A stretch of DNA of 30,672 nt from a virus. The stretch is from positions 1 through 30,672 of the IMG/VR virus record IMGVR_UViG_3300032288_001794; one strand, given 5' to 3'. A model generated the notes under the pieces. That model was not told the origin of the DNA, did no database searches, and saw only the letters and a list, made by a program, of their open reading frames with translations. Below are positions 13,946 through 28,304 of the stretch, one piece after another; position 1 is the first letter of the stretch; every line of letters starts with the position of its first letter. A program made the position numbers and the translations under genes.

Positions 13946-15174
13946 TGCCTGCGGTTACTGAGAAGGTCGAACTTGGTTTCGATGAGAATGGGCCAGGTAA
14001 CTTTTTTATCCTTGATGACCCTGTTCAGGGTGTGTTAGACAACCCTGGCTATGTGTTGGGTGGTGGGTCGTTCTTCTACGATGTGTCGGCGTATGTGACA
14101 CAGATCAGTGTGAACCGTGGCAAGAGCCGTGCGCTTGACCGTTATCAGTCGGGTGTTGTGAATGTTCAGTTCAATAACCGAAACAGGTTCTTTGACCCGA
14201 CTTATGTGGCTTCGCCGTTTTATGGTCAGATTGTGCCTCGCCGCGATGTGCGCATAACAGCTAATAATGAGTTGGTGTTCTTGGGAACGACTGAGGACTG
14301 GAATTTGGATTATGCGCCGAATGGTGATTCGACTGCGACTGTTTCGGCTGCTGACGGTTTCGCGTTCTTGGCTGGTCAGACTTTGACGACTGGCACTAAC
14401 CCTGTTGAGTTGTCGGGTGCGCGTGTGAATCGTGTGTTGGATTCTGCTGGTGTGGCGTGGCCTGCTGGTGCTAGAAGCATTGACACTGGCACTGCGACTT
14501 TGCAGGGTGATGCGGTGACACCGGCTGATAACGCTTTGCAGTATTTGCAGCTGATTGAGTCTTCTGAACCTGGTGAACTGTTCATTGGTAAAGATGGCCG
14601 TTTGGTGTTTCAGGATCGCAATAAGGCGTTCCCTTCGACTGCTGTGCCGTTGTTGACTGATAACGCTTCGGGGATTACTTATTCGCAGGTGCGTGTTGTT
14701 TATGGTTCGGAGTTGTTGTTTACGCAGTCTGAGGTGAGCCGCAAGGGGTCTTCGACTATTGTGCAGGCGAACGACTTGTCGGCTCAGTCTGATTACGGTG
14801 TGCGAACCTTGACCTTGGACGGGTTGTTGCAGAACACTGATGATGCTTTGGTTGAGTTGGCCACTTACTATGTGACTTTGTATGCGCAGCCTGAGTATCG
14901 TTTTGACCAGGTTGAAATCATTTTGTCGCAGCTGTCTTTGGTTGACCAGAATAAGATTTTGGCTTTGGATTTGGGTTCGGTTGTGCAGGTGCAGTTCACA
15001 CCTAATGGCATTGCACCGGCTATCACCAAGTTTGCGAGGGTTATTTCTATCGGCCACACGGCTTCGTTGGTTGATCACAAGGTGGTTCTTGGTTTGGGAA
15101 CGCTGAACGCTACACTATTCCAGTTGGATGATGTGGCGTTTGGTATCCTAGACACAGGAACATTAGCGTTCTAA
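13945..15174 (+). CDS. Minor tail protein (distal tail / hub)
   Basis: The 409-residue protein follows the tape measure. Features such as FFYDVSAYVTQISVNRGKSR, DRYQSGVVNVQFNNRNRFFDP, VPRRDVRI and a GELFIGKDGRLVFQDRN block are common in actinophage minor tail proteins that form the baseplate-like tip. It is beta-rich throughout. It probably joins distal-tail and hub functions in one chain, since no separate Dit and Tal genes are seen. The start overlaps the tape-measure stop (TAATG). Confidence 0.8.
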   Translation: MPAVTEKVELGFDENGPGNFFILDDPVQGVLDNPGYVLGGGSFFYDVSAYVTQISVNRGKSRALDRYQSGVVNVQFNNRNRFFDPTYVASPFYGQIVPRRDVRITANNELVFLGTTEDWNLDYAPNGDSTATVSAADGFAFLAGQTLTTGTNPVELSGARVNRVLDSAGVAWPAGARSIDTGTATLQGDAVTPADNALQYLQLIESSEPGELFIGKDGRLVFQDRNKAFPSTAVPLLTDNASGITYSQVRVVYGSELLFTQSEVSRKGSSTIVQANDLSAQSDYGVRTLTLDGLLQNTDDALVELATYYVTLYAQPEYRFDQVEIILSQLSLVDQNKILALDLGSVVQVQFTPNGIAPAITKFARVISIGHTASLVDHKVVLGLGTLNATLFQLDDVAFGILDTGTLAF

Positions 15175-18367: not shown

Positions 18368-18654
18368 TGCGTGACAAGATAAAAAGCCGTCTAAACGCCG
18401 TAGGTGGCGTTCTAGGGGCTATTGTGTGGCGTGGGTTTGGGCTGTTCTTGTTCATTTTGGGTGGGGCTGCTGGAACTGGTGCTGTTGTGGTGGGTGACTG
18501 GGTTGTTGGTGTGCTGATCGCCTGGGTTACGCTCATGTTGGGTGTGGTTGGGGCTATCGGGTATGCGATTGCGACCACCGGTGCTGCGACTGAGGCTGAT
18601 GTGGCGAAGGCTGCTCAGGATGCTGTGCAGAAGGCCAACGAAACTAAGAAATAG
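18367..18654 (+). CDS. Holin-like two-span membrane protein
   Basis: A 95-residue product with a basic start (MRDKIKSRLN), two hydrophobic segments (about 22-43 and 46-70, WRGFGLFLFILGGAAGTGAV and VVGVLIAWVTLMLGVVGAIG), and a charged helical tail (EADVAKAAQDAVQKANETKK). That fits a class II holin. It overlaps the stop of the M23 gene (TAATG) and its own 3' end overlaps the convergent whiB by 11 bases. It would control lysis timing and release the endolysin. Function is from layout and topology, not from sequence identity. Confidence 0.72.
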   Translation: MRDKIKSRLNAVGGVLGAIVWRGFGLFLFILGGAAGTGAVVVGDWVVGVLIAWVTLMLGVVGAIGYAIATTGAATEADVAKAAQDAVQKANETKK

Positions 18655-18931
18655 TTTCGGGTGTGGCCAGTCGTTCGTGAACGGTCAAACCACCGATGAT
18701 GCCGTATGGCACAGCTGCTAACAATCCCCAATCGCGACAGGGTTTCAGTAGCGGACATTCTGCGCACAGGTTCTTTGCAACCTTTTCGGCCATGTCATAC
18801 ATTTCTGGGTCTTCAAATTCTTCGGGGTAGAACACTTGTGGTAGTTCTTCGCATGGCGATCCGCCGTTGTCGCGTTGCAGTTCCATTAGCCGTTTGTAGG
18901 CGTTGTCTGCTGTTTGTCGGTGGGTGGCCAT
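18644..18931 (-). CDS. WhiB-family Fe-S regulator
   Basis: The only - strand gene. The 95-residue protein carries the four cysteines of WhiB proteins (Cys27, then CAEC at 56-59 and Cys65 in KPCRDW) that bind a 4Fe-4S cluster, followed by the GIIGGL turn (78-83) and a short C-terminal tail; the tail lacks a strong basic AT-hook-like patch, so DNA binding is uncertain. WhiB proteins act with the primary sigma factor. A phage homologue, WhiB of TM4, is reported to block host WhiB2, impair septation and give superinfection exclusion. Here whiB converges on the lysis genes and diverges from the recombination genes with only 32 bases between starts, so promoters must overlap. Confidence 0.92.
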   Translation of the reverse strand: MATHRQTADNAYKRLMELQRDNGGSPCEELPQVFYPEEFEDPEMYDMAEKVAKNLCAECPLLKPCRDWGLLAAVPYGIIGGLTVHERLATPETIS

Positions 18932-18963: not shown

Positions 18964-19836
18964 ATGGCAAAGTTTTTGGGTAAGCACGAGTCGGGTTCGG
19001 CTGAGTGGTTGGCGTTGCGTGAGGGTGAGGCGGTTGTGACCGGCACTCTTGTTGGGCAGATTTTGGGGTTGAATCCGTGGGAGTCTGCTTTTACTGCTTG
19101 GGCTAAGGCCACTGGGAAGATTCCTAATGAGGTGAAGCAGTCGTTGGCGATGCGCTTTGGTCAGGTGTTTGAAGACCCGATTAAGTTGGTTTGGTCTGAG
19201 CTGAATCCTGGTTATGAGATTGTGAGCGATGTTGGCACTTGGGCGCATGACGAGTTTGATTGGGCTAGGGCTAACCCTGATGGTTTGCTGAATTACCCTG
19301 ACGGCACTTCGGGCATTTTGGAAATTAAGACCAGCCGTGTGCCGTTTGATGAAGTGCCACCACACTATCGGGCGCAGGTGCTTTGGTATTGCTTTGTGAT
19401 GGGTGCGACTAAGGCGAAACTGGTGGCGTTGTTTGCTGGTAACGATCTGCGCGAGTTCGACATCGAATTTGACCAGTGGGAATTTAATGCGATGTTTGCA
19501 GCTGTTGAGCGTTGGCGCGAGTGTGTGTTGACCGAATCGAAGCCTGATTGGGATGGGTCTGCCAGCACTTATGAAACTGTGAAGGCGTTGAACACTGGCA
19601 CGGCTGACCTGGCTGTTGACCTGGGTGACCTCGGTTTGCATGTTCAGAACGCACAGTCGGACTTTGACAAGGCCGCTGAACACCTGCAAGAGTTGAAGTC
19701 GCGCACACTGGATGCTTTGGGTGAGGCCAAGACTGGTTTTGTGGAAGTCGGTGGCGAGCAGTATGTTGTTTGCACCAGAAGCGTGAATCGTAATGGTGTT
19801 GTTTCACTAACTATCAAGAAGGGTAAAAATGTCTGA
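18964..19836 (+). CDS. YqaJ-type recombination exonuclease
   Basis: Predicted lambda-exonuclease-like nuclease that chews one strand at DNA ends to load an annealing protein. The 290-residue protein shows the PD-(D/E)XK core: TGTLVGQILGLNPW, Glu70 (GQVFEDP), Asp106 (NPDG), Glu120-Ile-Lys122 (LEIKTS), and the HYRAQVLWY helix (Gln138). The last 80 residues add a helical, coiled-coil-prone extension (FDKAAEHLQELKSRTLDALG). A GAAGGG site precedes the ATG. It stands first in the recombination/replication operon and its stop region overlaps the next gene by eight bases. Confidence 0.9.
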   Translation: MAKFLGKHESGSAEWLALREGEAVVTGTLVGQILGLNPWESAFTAWAKATGKIPNEVKQSLAMRFGQVFEDPIKLVWSELNPGYEIVSDVGTWAHDEFDWARANPDGLLNYPDGTSGILEIKTSRVPFDEVPPHYRAQVLWYCFVMGATKAKLVALFAGNDLREFDIEFDQWEFNAMFAAVERWRECVLTESKPDWDGSASTYETVKALNTGTADLAVDLGDLGLHVQNAQSDFDKAAEHLQELKSRTLDALGEAKTGFVEVGGEQYVVCTRSVNRNGVVSLTIKKGKNV

Positions 19837-24314: not shown

Positions 24315-24472
24315 TGACTAAGTTGCTGACCACCGTTGTTTTCGGGTCGGGCGCGTTTTTTACTTGGCAGGCTGTTGATGCTGATGCGTTGCCTGTTCCT
24401 GTTCGGTTGTGGGCGTTGCTTGTGTTTGTTGTGCAGGTTGGGGTTGTGGCGGCGTTGTGGCTGAAGAAGTAG
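24314..24472 (+). CDS. Small membrane protein
   Basis: The 52-residue product starts overlapping the SSB stop (TAATG) and carries a hydrophobic start (LLTTVVFGSGAFFTW), a short polar turn (QAVDADALPVPVR) and a second hydrophobic run (LWALLVFVVQVGVVAALWL) ending in KK. Two membrane spans are likely. Its last 16 bases overlap the start of the RusA gene. No motif. It may be one of several tiny membrane proteins in this genome (2062, 25001, 26607). Confidence 0.55.
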   Translation: MTKLLTTVVFGSGAFFTWQAVDADALPVPVRLWALLVFVVQVGVVAALWLKK

Positions 24473-24897
24473 GCCGTCAACACGCGCTGCTGTTTGTGAA
24501 GGGCAGACCAGCACCACAAGGGTCAAAGAACGCTTTTGTAATTGGCAAACGAGCTGTGATGGTTGAGGCCAGCAAACACTTACCGGCTTGGCGCAACGAG
24601 ATTGTTTTGGCGGTCAAGCAGCTGTTTCATGAAACTGAGGATGTCAGCAAGTTTGTTGACCCTATCAAACTGAAGGTCACCTTCTACATTGAGCGACCTA
24701 AACAGCCGAAGCACAAAGTCTGGCCTGGGAGTAAACCTGACCTGGATCACTACATTCGGGCGGTGGGCGATGCCTTGACCATTGGTGGCCTGATCGCTGA
24801 TGATGCGCTGATTGTCAAGATTCTGGCTGAAAAGGTCTGGTGTGGGGCTGAAACTAAGCCTGAGCCTGGGGCAACCATCGAATTGTGGCGTTTGTAA
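24457..24897 (+). CDS. RusA-type Holliday junction resolvase
   Basis: Predicted to cut four-way DNA junctions during phage recombination or before packaging. I place the start at GTG 24457, overlapping the previous gene, giving 146 residues; the open frame extends further upstream. RusA marks are VKGRPAPQGSKN (14-25), the acidic catalytic region KPDLDHYIRAVGDAL (93-107, Asp95, Asp97, Asp105) and the later IADDALIV (113-120). It is dimeric in known cases. It stands at the end of the replication block, and a gap follows that holds a possible promoter. Confidence 0.88.
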   Translation: MAEEVGRQHALLFVKGRPAPQGSKNAFVIGKRAVMVEASKHLPAWRNEIVLAVKQLFHETEDVSKFVDPIKLKVTFYIERPKQPKHKVWPGSKPDLDHYIRAVGDALTIGGLIADDALIVKILAEKVWCGAETKPEPGATIELWRL

Positions 24898-24934
24898 CGG
24901 TTCGGTAACGGCACAAAATTAGGCGTGTCAATGC

Positions 24935-24963
24935 TTGCTTTTGTCTGTGGTCATCCCTAGATT
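24935..24963 (+). promoter_or_regulatory. Possible promoter of small-gene operon
   Basis: TTGCTT (24935-24940) and TAGATT (24958-24963) are separated by 17 bases, a fair sigma-70-type match, in the only gap of size between the replication block and the small-gene train. It would drive the genes from 25001 on. No other data. Confidence 0.35.
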
Positions 24964-24968
24964 TGACC

Positions 24969-24989
24969 TGTCAGGCCAACAAACTGACA
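24969..24989 (+). promoter_or_regulatory. Inverted repeat ahead of small-gene operon
   Basis: TGTCAG (24969-24974) and CTGACA (24984-24989) form a perfect 6-bp inverted repeat with a 9-base spacer, just after the possible -10 and just before the AAAAGGG ribosome site of the gene at 25001. It may be an operator or an RNA hairpin near the ribosome site. Confidence 0.35.
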
Positions 24990-25000
24990 AAAGGGTAAAA

Positions 25001-25171
25001 ATGAAAACATTATTGGTATTGGCTGCTGGTGCAGCTTTGGGCTTCGGTCTGCATCTCGTGTTTGAGTTCGGGTTGCAGAAATGGTTTGGTGTCGGTGCGG
25101 CGCTGATCCTTTCGGTTATTTTGTTCCGCGAGTATGTGACCCGACCTGGCATCAAGCGAGGTCGCAAATGA
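25001..25171 (+). CDS. Small membrane protein
   Basis: Start at ATG 25001 after AAAAGGG; the frame runs back to 24935 across the promoter region. The 56-residue product has two hydrophobic segments (TLLVLAAGAALGFGLHLVF and WFGVGAALILSVILF) and a strongly basic tail (RPGIKRGRK), so a two-span membrane protein with a cytoplasmic basic end is likely. First gene of the small-gene train. Its stop overlaps the next start (ATGA). Unknown role. Confidence 0.65.
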   Translation: MKTLLVLAAGAALGFGLHLVFEFGLQKWFGVGAALILSVILFREYVTRPGIKRGRK

Positions 25172-25362
25172 GCGCCGATGCAAAGTTCACTTATGAGCAG
25201 GTTTCTTTGGCTGTGCGTGAAGCAGCGAACACTGCCTATGAGATGGGCAAGATGGAAACTGTTGTGAAGGTTGCCGACTTTATTCAGTCGTTGGCGCAAC
25301 ATCCGTCTAGGACACCTTCGTTGGAGTATGTCGCTGAGAGGGTTCGTGACTTCGATGCTTGA
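25168..25362 (+). CDS. Small helical protein, train member (divergent)
   Basis: 64 residues from ATG 25168 (ATGA overlap). FTYEQVSLAVREAANTAYEM followed by GKMETVVKVADFIQSLAQHP gives a helical protein whose middle AYEMGKMETVVKVADFI recalls the Y..G...ER.RI..LL pattern of the genes that follow, but weakly. It lacks the LIKGE ending. Overlaps the next gene by eight bases. Function unknown. Confidence 0.65.
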   Translation: MSADAKFTYEQVSLAVREAANTAYEMGKMETVVKVADFIQSLAQHPSRTPSLEYVAERVRDFDA

Positions 25363-25585
25363 TTTGACTAAACCTGAAATCAAACAGGCTTACCTGTTGG
25401 GTGTTGAAGCCGGCAGGGCTGGTGCGAACACTGATGCTGACCGTGCAGCGCAGAACACTGAGAACCGTATCGTTTATGAGCTTGGTTTGTATCACACGAA
25501 ACTTGTGAAGCATGATTGCGTTGTGCAGGCTGGTGTGGTTAAGCACTGCATCGGTCTTATCCAGGGCGAGGTGCTAAATGATTGA
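25355..25585 (+). CDS. Small helical protein, LIxGE train member 1
   Basis: 76 residues from ATG 25355. It begins KPEIKQAYLLGVEAGRAGA, has NRIVYELGLYHTKLVKHDCV and ends HCIGLIQGEVLND. The YLLGVEAG...NRI...L and the LIQGE end tie it to the next genes. Two cysteines and histidines (HDC, KHC) recur in cluster members at similar places. The LIQGE codons (CTT ATC CAG GGC GAG) place GAGG six bases before the next ATG. Role unknown. Confidence 0.68.
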   Translation: MLDLTKPEIKQAYLLGVEAGRAGANTDADRAAQNTENRIVYELGLYHTKLVKHDCVVQAGVVKHCIGLIQGEVLND

Positions 25586-25760
25586 TCCGCATGGTGAACC
25601 GGTGCGCGAGTTCTATCGTAAACAAGGTGAGGCGCGAGAGCGTGAGCGCATTATCAAGTTGCTAAAAGAAACTTTTGGCACTTTGGGTATTCAGATGCAA
25701 GTTGGCTCTTATATCTTTGCAACCGACCTAGAAACACTAATCAAAGGAGAGCAGAAGTGA
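25578..25760 (+). CDS. Small helical protein, LIKGE train member 2
   Basis: 60 residues starting inside the end of the previous gene. YRKQGEARERERIIKLLKET is a charged helix, and the end is DLETLIKGEQK. The AAAGGAGAG codons for KGE form the ribosome site of the next gene, with GGAG seven bases from its GTG. No Cys in this copy. No known family or function. Confidence 0.7.
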   Translation: MIDPHGEPVREFYRKQGEARERERIIKLLKETFGTLGIQMQVGSYIFATDLETLIKGEQK

Positions 25761-25957
25761 GTGAGCAATTCGGCTTCGACAACATGCACTATCGAAGCGG
25801 TTTTCAGTCTGGTATTGAGTTTGAGCGTCAGCGTATTGAAAAACTATTGCCTGAAATAATCAGGATTGGCAACATTGACTATCTTTGGGACATTGACAAG
25901 GAGATGCCTGAGTTAGTTCAGGAGGCCAAGGAACTAATCAAAGGAGAGCAGAAGTGA
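25757..25957 (+). CDS. Small helical protein, LIKGE train member 3
   Basis: 66 residues from GTG 25757 (GTGA overlap). It contains GFQSGIEFERQRIEKLLPEI and ends ELIKGEQK, the same as member 2. The ribosome site is the previous gene's KGE codons. Acidic and helical overall. Last codons again provide AAAGGAGAG for the next GTG. Confidence 0.7.
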   Translation: MSEQFGFDNMHYRSGFQSGIEFERQRIEKLLPEIIRIGNIDYLWDIDKEMPELVQEAKELIKGEQK

Positions 25958-26145
25958 GCAACGACTTTTGGCAGACAATAGGTGACTTTGTAGCCGCCGA
26001 AATGCGTGGTGCAGAGCTAGAGCGTGAGCGTATTATCAAACTGCTAGAAGCAGACATTTGCCCAAATGCGACTTGGGATTGCTGTGATCGTGCTTGTTGG
26101 GCATACAAAGATGCTGTCGCTCTTATCAAGGGAGAGAACAAGTGA
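25954..26145 (+). CDS. Small helical protein, LIKGE train member 4
   Basis: 63 residues from GTG 25954. MRGAELERERIIKLLEADIC is followed by CPNATWDCCDRACWAYKDAV, a four-cysteine cluster, and the end ALIKGENK. The cysteines, lacking in members 2 and 3, may bind metal. The codons ATC AAG GGA GAG set GGAG seven bases before the following GTG. Confidence 0.7.
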   Translation: MSNDFWQTIGDFVAAEMRGAELERERIIKLLEADICPNATWDCCDRACWAYKDAVALIKGENK

Positions 26146-26378
26146 ACCACAAGCCTGAATGTAATGAAAAGTGGGAGTATGACAAAGACCACTGCATTTG
26201 TAACTGGATTGACAAGGCTGAACGACGCATCATCAAACTGCTAGAAGACGACTATTTCCACCTAATCGGTAGTGCTGGCGAAACTTGGAACGGCAAACTG
26301 ATTATGGAAAAAGTCCATTTAGACGGTTGCTTAGGTTGCGAGCAAATCGCTCTCATCAAAGGGGAATCAAATGAGTAA
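26142..26378 (+). CDS. Small helical protein, LIKGE train member 5
   Basis: 78 residues from GTG 26142; the frame back to 26094 has no ribosome site. It adds an N-terminal Cys/His part (HKPECNEKWEYDKDHCICNW) before KAERRIIKLLEDDYFHLIGS, and ends CLGCEQIALIKGESNE. Cysteines at both sides of the helix. GGGG in its KGE codons serves the next ATG. Unknown function. Confidence 0.7.
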   Translation: MNHKPECNEKWEYDKDHCICNWIDKAERRIIKLLEDDYFHLIGSAGETWNGKLIMEKVHLDGCLGCEQIALIKGESNE

Positions 26379-26607
26379 TCCTGAGCTAGAACGCGAGTTC
26401 GACCCTAAATGGTTTGAACCAGCACCTAATCAAACCGAATACACGCAGGGCTTTTACGCCGGTCAAATCAAGGAACGCACACGCATCATTGCTGAGATTG
26501 AACGCAACATTTGTTTCGATGCTTTGGCTGATGACGATGGGCGCTGCTCGCATCATGGCGGCAAGTGTTACGACCTGCGCCAGCTAATCAAGAAACTAGG
26601 CCAGTGA
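26371..26607 (+). CDS. Small helical protein, train member 6
   Basis: 78 residues from ATG 26371. YAGQIKERTRIIAEIERNIC then CFDALADDDGRCSHHGGKCY and the end LRQLIKKLGQ. The helix and Cys pattern match members 4 and 5, but the LIKGE end has become LIKKLG, and no good ribosome site is left for the next gene, which still overlaps (TGATG). Marks the end of the relay. Confidence 0.68.
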   Translation: MSNPELEREFDPKWFEPAPNQTEYTQGFYAGQIKERTRIIAEIERNICFDALADDDGRCSHHGGKCYDLRQLIKKLGQ

Positions 26608-26899: not shown

Positions 26900-27135
26900 T
26901 GGGTTTGTTAGATGGTTTAGAACCACACAAGAAGGCTAGGCCGTGTCGGGTGAGGTCGTTGTTGGCTGAGCTTGAGAAGAAGGATGCCGACATTCTGGCT
27001 TCCGCGTTGCAGTCACCTGATTTGTGGCCTGCAAAGACTCTAAGTAACGCGTTGAAGCAGCGCGGCGTGTTGTTGTCTGATTCGGCTATTACTCATCACC
27101 GTTCAAAAGCGTGTTCATGTGGGAAGATTGACTGA
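26899..27135 (+). CDS. Small HTH-like DNA-binding protein
   Basis: 78 residues from ATG 26899 (TAATG). The pattern CRVRSLLAELEKKDADILAS, then LWPAKTLSNALKQRGVLLSD and SAITHHRSKACSCGK, i.e. helices with a final H.R...C.C end, is common in actinophages and looks like a winged-helix or terminase-small-like DNA-binding module (ALKQRG as turn, SAITHHR as recognition helix). It is coupled to the phosphoesterase gene that follows (TGATG). DNA binding is an inference from the pattern. Confidence 0.65.
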   Translation: MGLLDGLEPHKKARPCRVRSLLAELEKKDADILASALQSPDLWPAKTLSNALKQRGVLLSDSAITHHRSKACSCGKID

Positions 27136-28304
27136 TGCTAGAAGACCTGACACCAGCACCAAAAATTGACGCTCCGAACAGTTGGCGGCCAGCCGTTGAG
27201 TTTGACGGCACTAACGGTGAAGCGACTACTCGTGGCTTTTTGCCTGATGAGCAACCGAACTTTGACGAGTTCTTGGTTGACGCTGGTTTCGACCCTGCAC
27301 TGATTGAGATTGTGGGCGAACCACGCACTAGCCGTTGGCAGGTTGCCAGACCGTTTCCGTTAGATCCGCAGTGGTTGACGGCTTACCGTTTCAGGTTCAA
27401 GAAACGCACCGGCACGAACCCTGATTTGCCGTTGTTGTTTGCTGAGGCTAAGAAGACCCGACCTCGCACACCAAAGGCCACAGCGAATGAAAAGGTGTTT
27501 GTTGTTTGTCTGGCAGATTTTCAGGTTGGCAAGGTTGATTACCGTGGGGGCAGTAAAGAGCTGATTCAGCGCGTGTTGGCTTCGTATGACCGTATTGAAG
27601 AACAGTTGAAGCGTGGCAAGTATGGGCGCATCTATGCTTTGGATTTGGGTGACATCATTGAGGGCATTGAGAACGCTGCGAACATGAATCAGCTCGTCAC
27701 GAACGACCTCTCGGTTATGCAGTCTGTGGATTTGGCTGCTTCGCTGGTTTGGGATTTTTTGAAGATGGCCACGAAGTATGCGCCGGTGACTTATGCCAGC
27801 ATCGGGTCGAACCATTGCCAGTGGCGTGTCAACCGTCAACAGATTGGCAAACCTGGGCGCGATGACTGGGGCATTGTTATCCTGCAACAGCTGCGCAGAC
27901 TCGCAACAGAGGTCGGGTTGCCTGTGGACTTCCTTGTGCCACATGAGCAAGAAGAATCACTAATCTTTGATGCGTTCGGTGACGGTTTCCACCTTGTCGG
28001 CATTGCTCACGGTCACCAGTTCAGCAGACCTGAGAACGCTGTGACTTGGTGGCGGCAGAACACCTTTGGCAATCAGACGATCAGCGCGGCATCCATCCTG
28101 CTCACAGCTCACTTCCACCATTTGCGCGTTGTTGAGGCTGGTGCTAGTCATAATGGCGGTTCACGGTTCTGGGTGCAGGCCACGACCAGCGACAACGGAT
28201 CGTCATGGTTCAAGCGTGTTTCGGGTGAGGACTCTGTGCCTGGCATCACCTGTTTGGAACTGACTAAGGATTTGCACTATCAGGGCGCGGTGCTTAAACT
28301 CTAA
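27135..28304 (+). CDS. Calcineurin-like metallophosphoesterase
   Basis: A two-part 389-residue protein. Residues 1-115 are a variable N-terminal region (RWQVARPFPLDPQWLTAYRF) also known in front of phage phosphoesterases. Residues 120-340 have the calcineurin motifs: ADFQ (127-130), DLGD (170-173), GSNH (224-227), AHGH (291-294) and TAHFHH (324-329). In motif I the usual D-x-H is D-x-Q (Asp128, Gln130), which may change metal binding or activity. Substrate may be DNA (Mre11/SbcD-like) or a nucleotide; I cannot choose. It is coupled to the HTH-like gene and is followed, six bases on, by the tmRNA-like RNA. Confidence 0.82.
   Translation: MLEDLTPAPKIDAPNSWRPAVEFDGTNGEATTRGFLPDEQPNFDEFLVDAGFDPALIEIVGEPRTSRWQVARPFPLDPQWLTAYRFRFKKRTGTNPDLPLLFAEAKKTRPRTPKATANEKVFVVCLADFQVGKVDYRGGSKELIQRVLASYDRIEEQLKRGKYGRIYALDLGDIIEGIENAANMNQLVTNDLSVMQSVDLAASLVWDFLKMATKYAPVTYASIGSNHCQWRVNRQQIGKPGRDDWGIVILQQLRRLATEVGLPVDFLVPHEQEESLIFDAFGDGFHLVGIAHGHQFSRPENAVTWWRQNTFGNQTISAASILLTAHFHHLRVVEAGASHNGGSRFWVQATTSDNGSSWFKRVSGEDSVPGITCLELTKDLHYQGAVLKL

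Follow-up and report, generated by a model that had tools for sequence, protein, structure and literature searches.

Six small overlapping genes of a phage genome appear, from comparison with their relatives, to be two-module chimeras, and the array that they form is very probably one of swappable half-genes, which recombine at two short joints, one in a coding helix and the other at the Shine-Dalgarno (SD) sequence, and which would be expressible through stop-start coupling. At the level of sequence, the comparisons show a fixed geometry of gene tail and SD, tails carried by unrelated proteins, halves that have been exchanged, and breakpoints that fall at the joints.

The train and its genomic setting

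The window, meaning the whole stretch of DNA that was analysed, is an entire virus record of 30,672 bases, and encodes a terminase, a portal, DnaB, a RecE-like exonuclease, RusA, NlpC/P60 and a WhiB-like gene. The train of small genes is flanked closely on its 5' side by a RusA-like Holliday junction resolvase (24409..24897, + strand; Pfam RusA) and on its 3' side by a phage exonuclease (phrog_284; 27135..28304, + strand), one relative of which is annotated MRE11. A RecE-like/YqaJ recombination exonuclease (18964..19836, + strand) is a candidate recombination function of this phage. The downstream exonuclease is most similar, at 48% identity, to its counterpart in Pontimonas phage phiPsal1; together with the WhiB-like transcription factor gene (18647-18931, - strand; Pfam Whib, 6e-12) this points to an actinobacterial host, as judged from gene content. 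The position of the train is conserved: homologues of RusA were found in at least 72 and of the exonuclease in at least 66 of 190 loci with family members, both counts being lower bounds because the loci are fragments, and the distances from the train were mostly about 1–1.6 kb upstream for RusA and 0.6–2 kb downstream for the exonuclease. Long antisense reading frames lie opposite coding genes at 24928-25383 and 14035-15078 (both - strand) and are probably due to chance.

The original prediction of six overlapping genes with a common helix and tail is confirmed in the window, with corrections at two junctions. All six lie on the + strand between 25355 and 26607, with consecutive stop-to-start overlaps of 8, 4, 4, 4 and 8 bases; R, I, L and I of the shared pattern are invariant in 6/6 copies; copies 4, 5 and 6 are Cys-rich as described; and five of the six end in LIKGE or LIQGE, the exception being the last, which ends in LIKKLGQ. 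Gene 1 (25355..25585; MLDLTKPEIKQ...LIQGEVLND) is the most diverged (profile E 4.8e-17), has a helix-equivalent, TENRIVYELG, at about 25457-25486, and is also found in the related locus L300. Gene 2 (25578..25760) consists of an N-module ending in PVREFYRKQGEAR, the helix joint ERERIIKLLK (25638..25667), a C-module and the end LIKGEQK, encoded in the tail/SD joint CTAATCAAAGGAGAGCAGAAGTGA (25737..25760). Gene 3 (25757..25957) has the helix joint ERQRIEKLLP (25823-25852) and a tail joint (25934..25957) with the same DNA as that of gene 2. Gene 4 (25954..26145) comprises the N-module SNDFWQTIGDFVAAEMRGAE, a helix joint at 26020-26049, the C-module ADICPNATWDCCDRACWAY and the tail joint CTTATCAAGGGAGAGAACAAGTGA (26122..26145). 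Gene 5 (26142..26378) has the helix joint AERRIIKLLE (26217-26246) and the tail joint LIKGESNE (26352..26373). Gene 6 (26371..26607), with the helix ERTRIIAEIE (26473-26502), lacks KGE; compared with its counterpart in L300 (9404-9685), its N part is nearly identical and its C part shows an internal length change.

In each junction the LI(K/Q)GE codons, or codons adjoining them, provide the SD of the next train gene. The expectation of GGAG 6–7 bases before each start holds literally at junctions 2-3, 3-4 and 4-5, where GGAG, seven bases and GTG follow one another (GGAG at 25746-25749 and GTG at 25757 for the first of these; GTG at 25954 and 26142 for the others), and fails at the remaining two. 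Junction 1-2 (LIQGE codons, 25556..25580) has GGC as its Gly codon, and the SD is a GAGG from the following codons (25568-25571), 6 bases before the ATG at 25578; at junction 5-6 the SD sequence is AAAGGGGAA, with GGG as the Gly codon and the next ATG at 26371. The tail pattern has three exact occurrences in the window against 0.03 expected (<=3 mismatches). A profile of the six copies recovered all six from the window's own record (E 4.8e-17 to 3.7e-30), which is not independent evidence, as the profile was built from the same sequences.

The family recurs in IMG/VR viral contigs and is without a name in the libraries searched. The six window genes gave only weak matches to Pfam and PHROG (best E 0.043), and Pfam, PHROG and PADLOC profiles gave no family match for 65/65 relatives, only single-member matches at E 0.007-0.01. 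Scans by helix and tail pattern gathered several hundred viral stretches among the matches listed (one helix-pattern scan returned 95 stretches in all), and the working set comprised, again among the matches listed, 283 members from 190 loci in addition to the window; phiPsal1 is one of these loci. As these loci were chosen by helix or tail pattern, frequencies within the set are not population frequencies, and pairs of members are not independent. One record, G011, holds seven members inside 1.8 kb. Two helix patterns returned no member from 84,980 bacterial and archaeal genomes (0 and 2 stretches, neither of the two resembling a member). A tblastn search of copy 4 against phages gave no match, and searches with two other members gave, besides phiPsal1 itself, only weak matches (E 1 or worse).

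Exchange of half-genes at the helix

The 263 distinct members were split at the helix, and halves were called related at a blastp E<=1e-5. Among the matches listed, 150 pairs were related in the N-half, 81 in the C-half and 6 in both; exact duplicates had been dropped before counting (276 to 246; 283 to 263), by which some both-related pairs were lost. The counts changed little when possible residues of an upstream tail were trimmed (146/81/6) or when 20 residues only were used (131/81/5). As a control, each half was itself divided: the two parts of the C-half were related in 47 and 75 pairs, 38 of them common, and those of the N-half in 91 and 198 pairs with 57 common (E<=1e-2). The parts within a half are thus far more concordant than the N- and C-halves with each other, which supports shuffling between halves. 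Among the matches listed, at least two C clusters are combined with 40 of the 42 N clusters, and at least two N clusters with 42 of the 44 C clusters. On sequence evidence, the comparison shows that half-genes have been shuffled at the helix, a process absent from the original prediction.

DNA identity drops at the helix edges, from about 70% to 26–30%. Pairs related in the C-half have 62–71% identity in the C part and 25–32% across most of the N part, the pattern is reversed in pairs related in the N-half, and the switch point is the ERERIIKLLE helix. Gene 4 of the window is such a chimera, its N-module being that seen in L001 and L004 and its C-module that of L005, L027 and L174. The N-module of gene 2 falls in a 13-member N cluster, where the six relatives given carry other C-halves, and L169, L035 and L072 share an N-module with DDEVTTTYGSIQLSL, with two kinds of C-half among the three phages.

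Breakpoints between relatives fall at the same places. The window and L300 match at 82% up to position 25673, at the gene 2 helix; the match resumes, at 90%, from position 26355, in the tail joint of gene 5. Between these breakpoints the window carries the C-module of gene 2 and genes 3, 4 and 5, and L300 carries one short unrelated C-module; the difference spans exactly from the gene 2 helix joint to the gene 5 tail joint. The C-module of gene 5 is identical in L265: the shared run of 128 bases (26232-26359) begins within the helix and stops within the tail, and the flanks are unlike. For member loci among the matches listed, left alignment ends lie in tails in 62 of 98 cases against 15.3 expected, and right ends lie in helices in 33 of 93 against 16.5 expected, and the N zones receive right ends at about the expected rate (35 against 32.2).

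Conservation of the helix joint could also be protein-level. The shuffling would then be real, with the helix kept only as the structural core of a hairpin and recombination occurring as a by-product wherever homology exists, with no selected joint; we regard this as a serious possibility, at rather less than an even chance. It accords with the AF2 model of gene 4 (65 sequences; mean pLDDT 84.7, pTM 0.59), a predicted helical hairpin of helices 3-34 and 42-59, in which the exchange point lies inside helix 1, in its second half, and the variable, often Cys-bearing stretch lies at and after the turn. A fold search of the PDB with this model gave no match at E<=0.001, the hairpin being too generic a fold. 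It is also established that phage recombinases carry out relaxed homologous recombination, as parts of PMC3945230 describe, and the DNA of the helix is partly identical in unrelated pairs (58–80% in most bins). Against conservation as a structural core only, Arg 2 and Arg 4 of the helix are dominated by different codons, CGT in 67 of 83 and CGC in 70 of 83, so that conservation reaches the DNA level; homogenisation by exchange itself could, however, cause the same.

The tail as ribosome site of the next gene

At the related loci, the next start lies at Gly+10 to +12 bases in 153 of the 173 unique IxG[EDGKQ] tails among the matches listed, the corresponding figures being 5.3% for random positions and 16.4% for positions after RGGRGA elsewhere in the same loci. 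The stop, measured from the Gly codon of KGE, floats between +6 and +30 while the next start stays fixed: the spacing holds with the stop at +9, +12, +15 or further, and tails such as LIKGEQNADIPSI or LIKGETNGET continue reading beyond the next start. The same in-frame tail closes unrelated proteins, with Pfam matches to HTH_17, DUF7249, DUF2283 and Methyltransf_11 (methyltransferase-like); ten tail-carrying proteins were compared with Pfam, and five had a match at E<=0.01 and five had none. Among the matches listed, 75 of 219 reading frames with tail and start lack the helix by regex, which is an upper figure: the regex missed the helix in some (for example ERERINDIIE and RIIKQLE, and likewise in window gene 3), and a few derive from other viruses, such as the CTGATTAAGGGGGAAGGGAAATGA loci, the Pfam-named carriers being the firm cases. 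Three small Cys-rich proteins, in L236, L264 and L174, appear zinc-ribbon-like by eye and have a FIKGENK or FIKGEQK tail.

When the element was searched without regard to frame, the LIKGE frame was open upstream in 108 of 141 occurrences among the matches listed, and 106 of these 108 had an overlapping TGA; 31 'short' elements with too little upstream open frame, which resemble the ordinary leaders of other viruses, were not counted as tails. Members that have lost IxGE retain an SD 4-mer in 49 of 97 cases, against 13.2 in shuffles (largest 23; 500 shuffles). The other 48 of these 97 members, all with a next reading frame, lack the SD 4-mer in the region inspected, which counts against our preferred reading. 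In other lineages the peptides RIKEGV and IQEGE give the same SD geometry, with AGGAGG before ATGA; one of these lineages has RIKEGV, AAGGAGGGCGTATGA. Three loci, L022, L050 and L134, form a second lineage of the same architecture, in which the C-module EMQRQVGDAHNHYG is found on three different N-modules and the tail RIKEGV gives a stronger SD (AAGGAGG) from a different peptide.

A next start that is fixed, a stop that floats and tails on unrelated proteins together support the view that the tail belongs to the following gene's ribosome-binding site and not to the protein that it ends, as far as sequence can tell. The proposal that LIKGE is kept as a DNA or RNA signal is upheld by the start at Gly+10 to +12 whatever the stop position, by the unrelated carriers and by retention of the SD where the peptide is lost. 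The synonymous-codon check proved to be confounded. The tail Gly is GGA in 84 of 95 tails among the matches listed (background 0.174), but codons outside the SD are as fixed (CTT for Leu in 71/95, ATC for Ile in 84/95, and likewise the helix arginines), so the whole joint is homogenised at the DNA level. Codon bias was therefore rejected as stand-alone proof of selection on the SD.

That LIKGE is instead a protein motif with a function of its own, its DNA kept by descent only and its SD match incidental, is improbable. Descent and homogenisation do account for much of the codon bias, given that CTT and ATC are fixed outside the SD, and Ala precedes Leu in 99 of 141 family tails, where it may contribute to the second helix at the protein level. 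Yet the motif is positioned by the next start and not by its own stop, it is present on unrelated proteins, and other lineages arrive at that SD geometry through different peptides.

Origin of the array and comparison with known systems

The original prediction suggested that the train had spread by tandem duplication of a unit that included the ribosome site, and proposed to test whether LIKGE is lost at the end of a train. The window's last copy fits the second idea; the rule is not general. Among the members listed, 8 at locus edges excluded, an IxGE-type tail was present in 32 of 48 that precede another member and in 136 of 227 that precede a non-member (p=0.42). Members with such a tail numbered 164 with and 9 without any next start, compared with 97 and 11 of the remainder (p=0.15), a blunt classification with little power, as nearly every member has a reading-frame start nearby. 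Duplication of one ancestral gene followed by divergence in place also has little chance of being right. Adjacent copies do have helix and tail in common, and genes 2 and 3 have the same tail DNA. However, pairs from the same locus are related in the N-half in only 2 of 105 cases and in the C-half in 1 of 105, the nearest halves of the window copies occur in other phages (among the matches listed), and what distinguishes L300 from the window is a joint-to-joint block rather than a number of complete repeat units.

As almost every member genome is a metagenome contig and the joints are repeated sequences, wrong pieces might have been joined at short repeats during assembly. We consider such an artefact very unlikely as a general account. 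The longest exact run at the joint is shorter than 21 bases in 133 of 144 pairs related only in the N-half and in 58 of 75 related only in the C-half, and runs of this length fall below common assembly k-mers; 10 C-only pairs have runs of at least 27, so that single cases could be artefacts. Moreover, gp050 of the cultured phage phiPsal1 (MG835450) belongs to the family (profile E 2.5e-6), with an N-half related to that of L125 and a different C-half. Rapid point mutation under diversifying selection, without exchange, would suit the extreme diversity of the C-modules but is excluded as the main process and has a negligible chance of explaining the train, as relatedness is lost both ways (some pairs keep a related N-half beside unrelated C-halves, others the converse) and L265 and the window are identical across a C-module and unrelated outside it.

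Our preferred reading is an array of half-genes that recombine at two joints, situated in an early region of a genome of actinophage type. Four parts make up each gene unit. The N-module runs from the start codon until one helix ends; the helix joint (ERERIIKLLE) covers 30 bases; the C-module is hypervariable; and the tail joint, of 20–24 bases, encodes (A)LIKGE[NQT]K and serves simultaneously as gene end, next SD and overlapping start. Both joints would be kept as DNA across otherwise unrelated modules, and recombination at them would move between phages the stretch from helix to tail (a C-module), that from tail to helix (an N-module) or whole runs. Since the tail joint holds SD, stop and start in fixed geometry, inserted pieces would be in frame and translated by coupling through the stop-start overlap. 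Homologous recombination at these boundary joints may proceed where homology is short or relaxed, possibly with help from the RecE-like exonuclease and the resolvase that this phage encodes; YqaJ/RecE-like and RusA genes are present. The products are predicted to be small helical-hairpin proteins whose variable halves would meet varying host or competitor targets, and our best guess is that they are accessory proteins with exchangeable recognition surfaces against hosts or rivals.

It is possible, and we suggest it only tentatively, that the two joints are selected as such and constitute a dedicated combinatorial gene-building system of phages, which would always yield a translated, foldable hairpin. 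Phages would then draw N- and C-half-modules from a shared environmental pool, in a process analogous to the shuffling of cassettes or segments but with no dedicated enzyme, and so be supplied with ever-changing host-directed or anti-defence small proteins. Swapping halves at two short joints would in any case be a simple route to many different small proteins. With both joints visible, one of them within the protein, and recent exchanges to be caught between close relatives, the assembly of new small genes by phages becomes directly testable. The tails also give reason for caution, as a conserved C-terminal peptide can be the ribosome site of the next gene and not a protein motif.

Several elements of this arrangement are already known: repeats that place an SD ahead of phage genes, boundary sequences where mosaic segments meet, and stop-start coupling. 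A search of the open-access literature, which was not exhaustive, found no description of paired joints, one in a coding helix, that reassort half-genes in trains. The stop-start overlap and intragenic SD of the train resemble termination-reinitiation coupling at ATGA/TGATG overlaps, as outlined in parts of PMC6728339; unlike the coupling described there, the train's element is a single mobile sequence, nearly constant, that many unrelated genes carry. Rad52-like phage recombinases, which carry out relaxed homologous recombination of diverged sequences according to sections of PMC3945230, offer a mechanism capable of recombining diverged phage homologies, as proposed here, whereas the candidate genes in the window are RecE-like and RusA-like. 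The SAS of cluster K mycobacteriophages, a repeated short SD-containing sequence just upstream of many starts (in passages of PMC3203893), is similar in that the train element is also an SD-bearing repeat immediately upstream of many starts. It differs, as far as those passages go, in that the train element sits within the upstream gene, in one reading frame and with a stop-start overlap; the 13-bp SAS consensus GGGATAGGAGCCC had no match in the window with up to two mismatches.

The nearest cultured counterpart is phiPsal1, in which gp050/gp051 (MG835450) have an ERERILYLIE helix, a FIEGEKK tail and an ATGA start overlap; unlike the window, its record has a single match to the family profile at E<=0.001. 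The closest concept is that of phage boundary sequences. According to portions of PMC3029335, short conserved boundary sequences have been proposed, in work cited there, to drive mosaicism, with a role for general or phage recombination, and mosaic phage genomes mostly switch without a visible conserved joint. The train likewise has short stretches of conserved DNA at the borders of its modules, and it is there that genomes switch in identity. It departs from the boundary sequences of those portions in that one joint lies inside a coding helix, giving chimeric proteins, and the other comprises stop, SD and start, and in that the same pair of joints recurs across many genes and phages.
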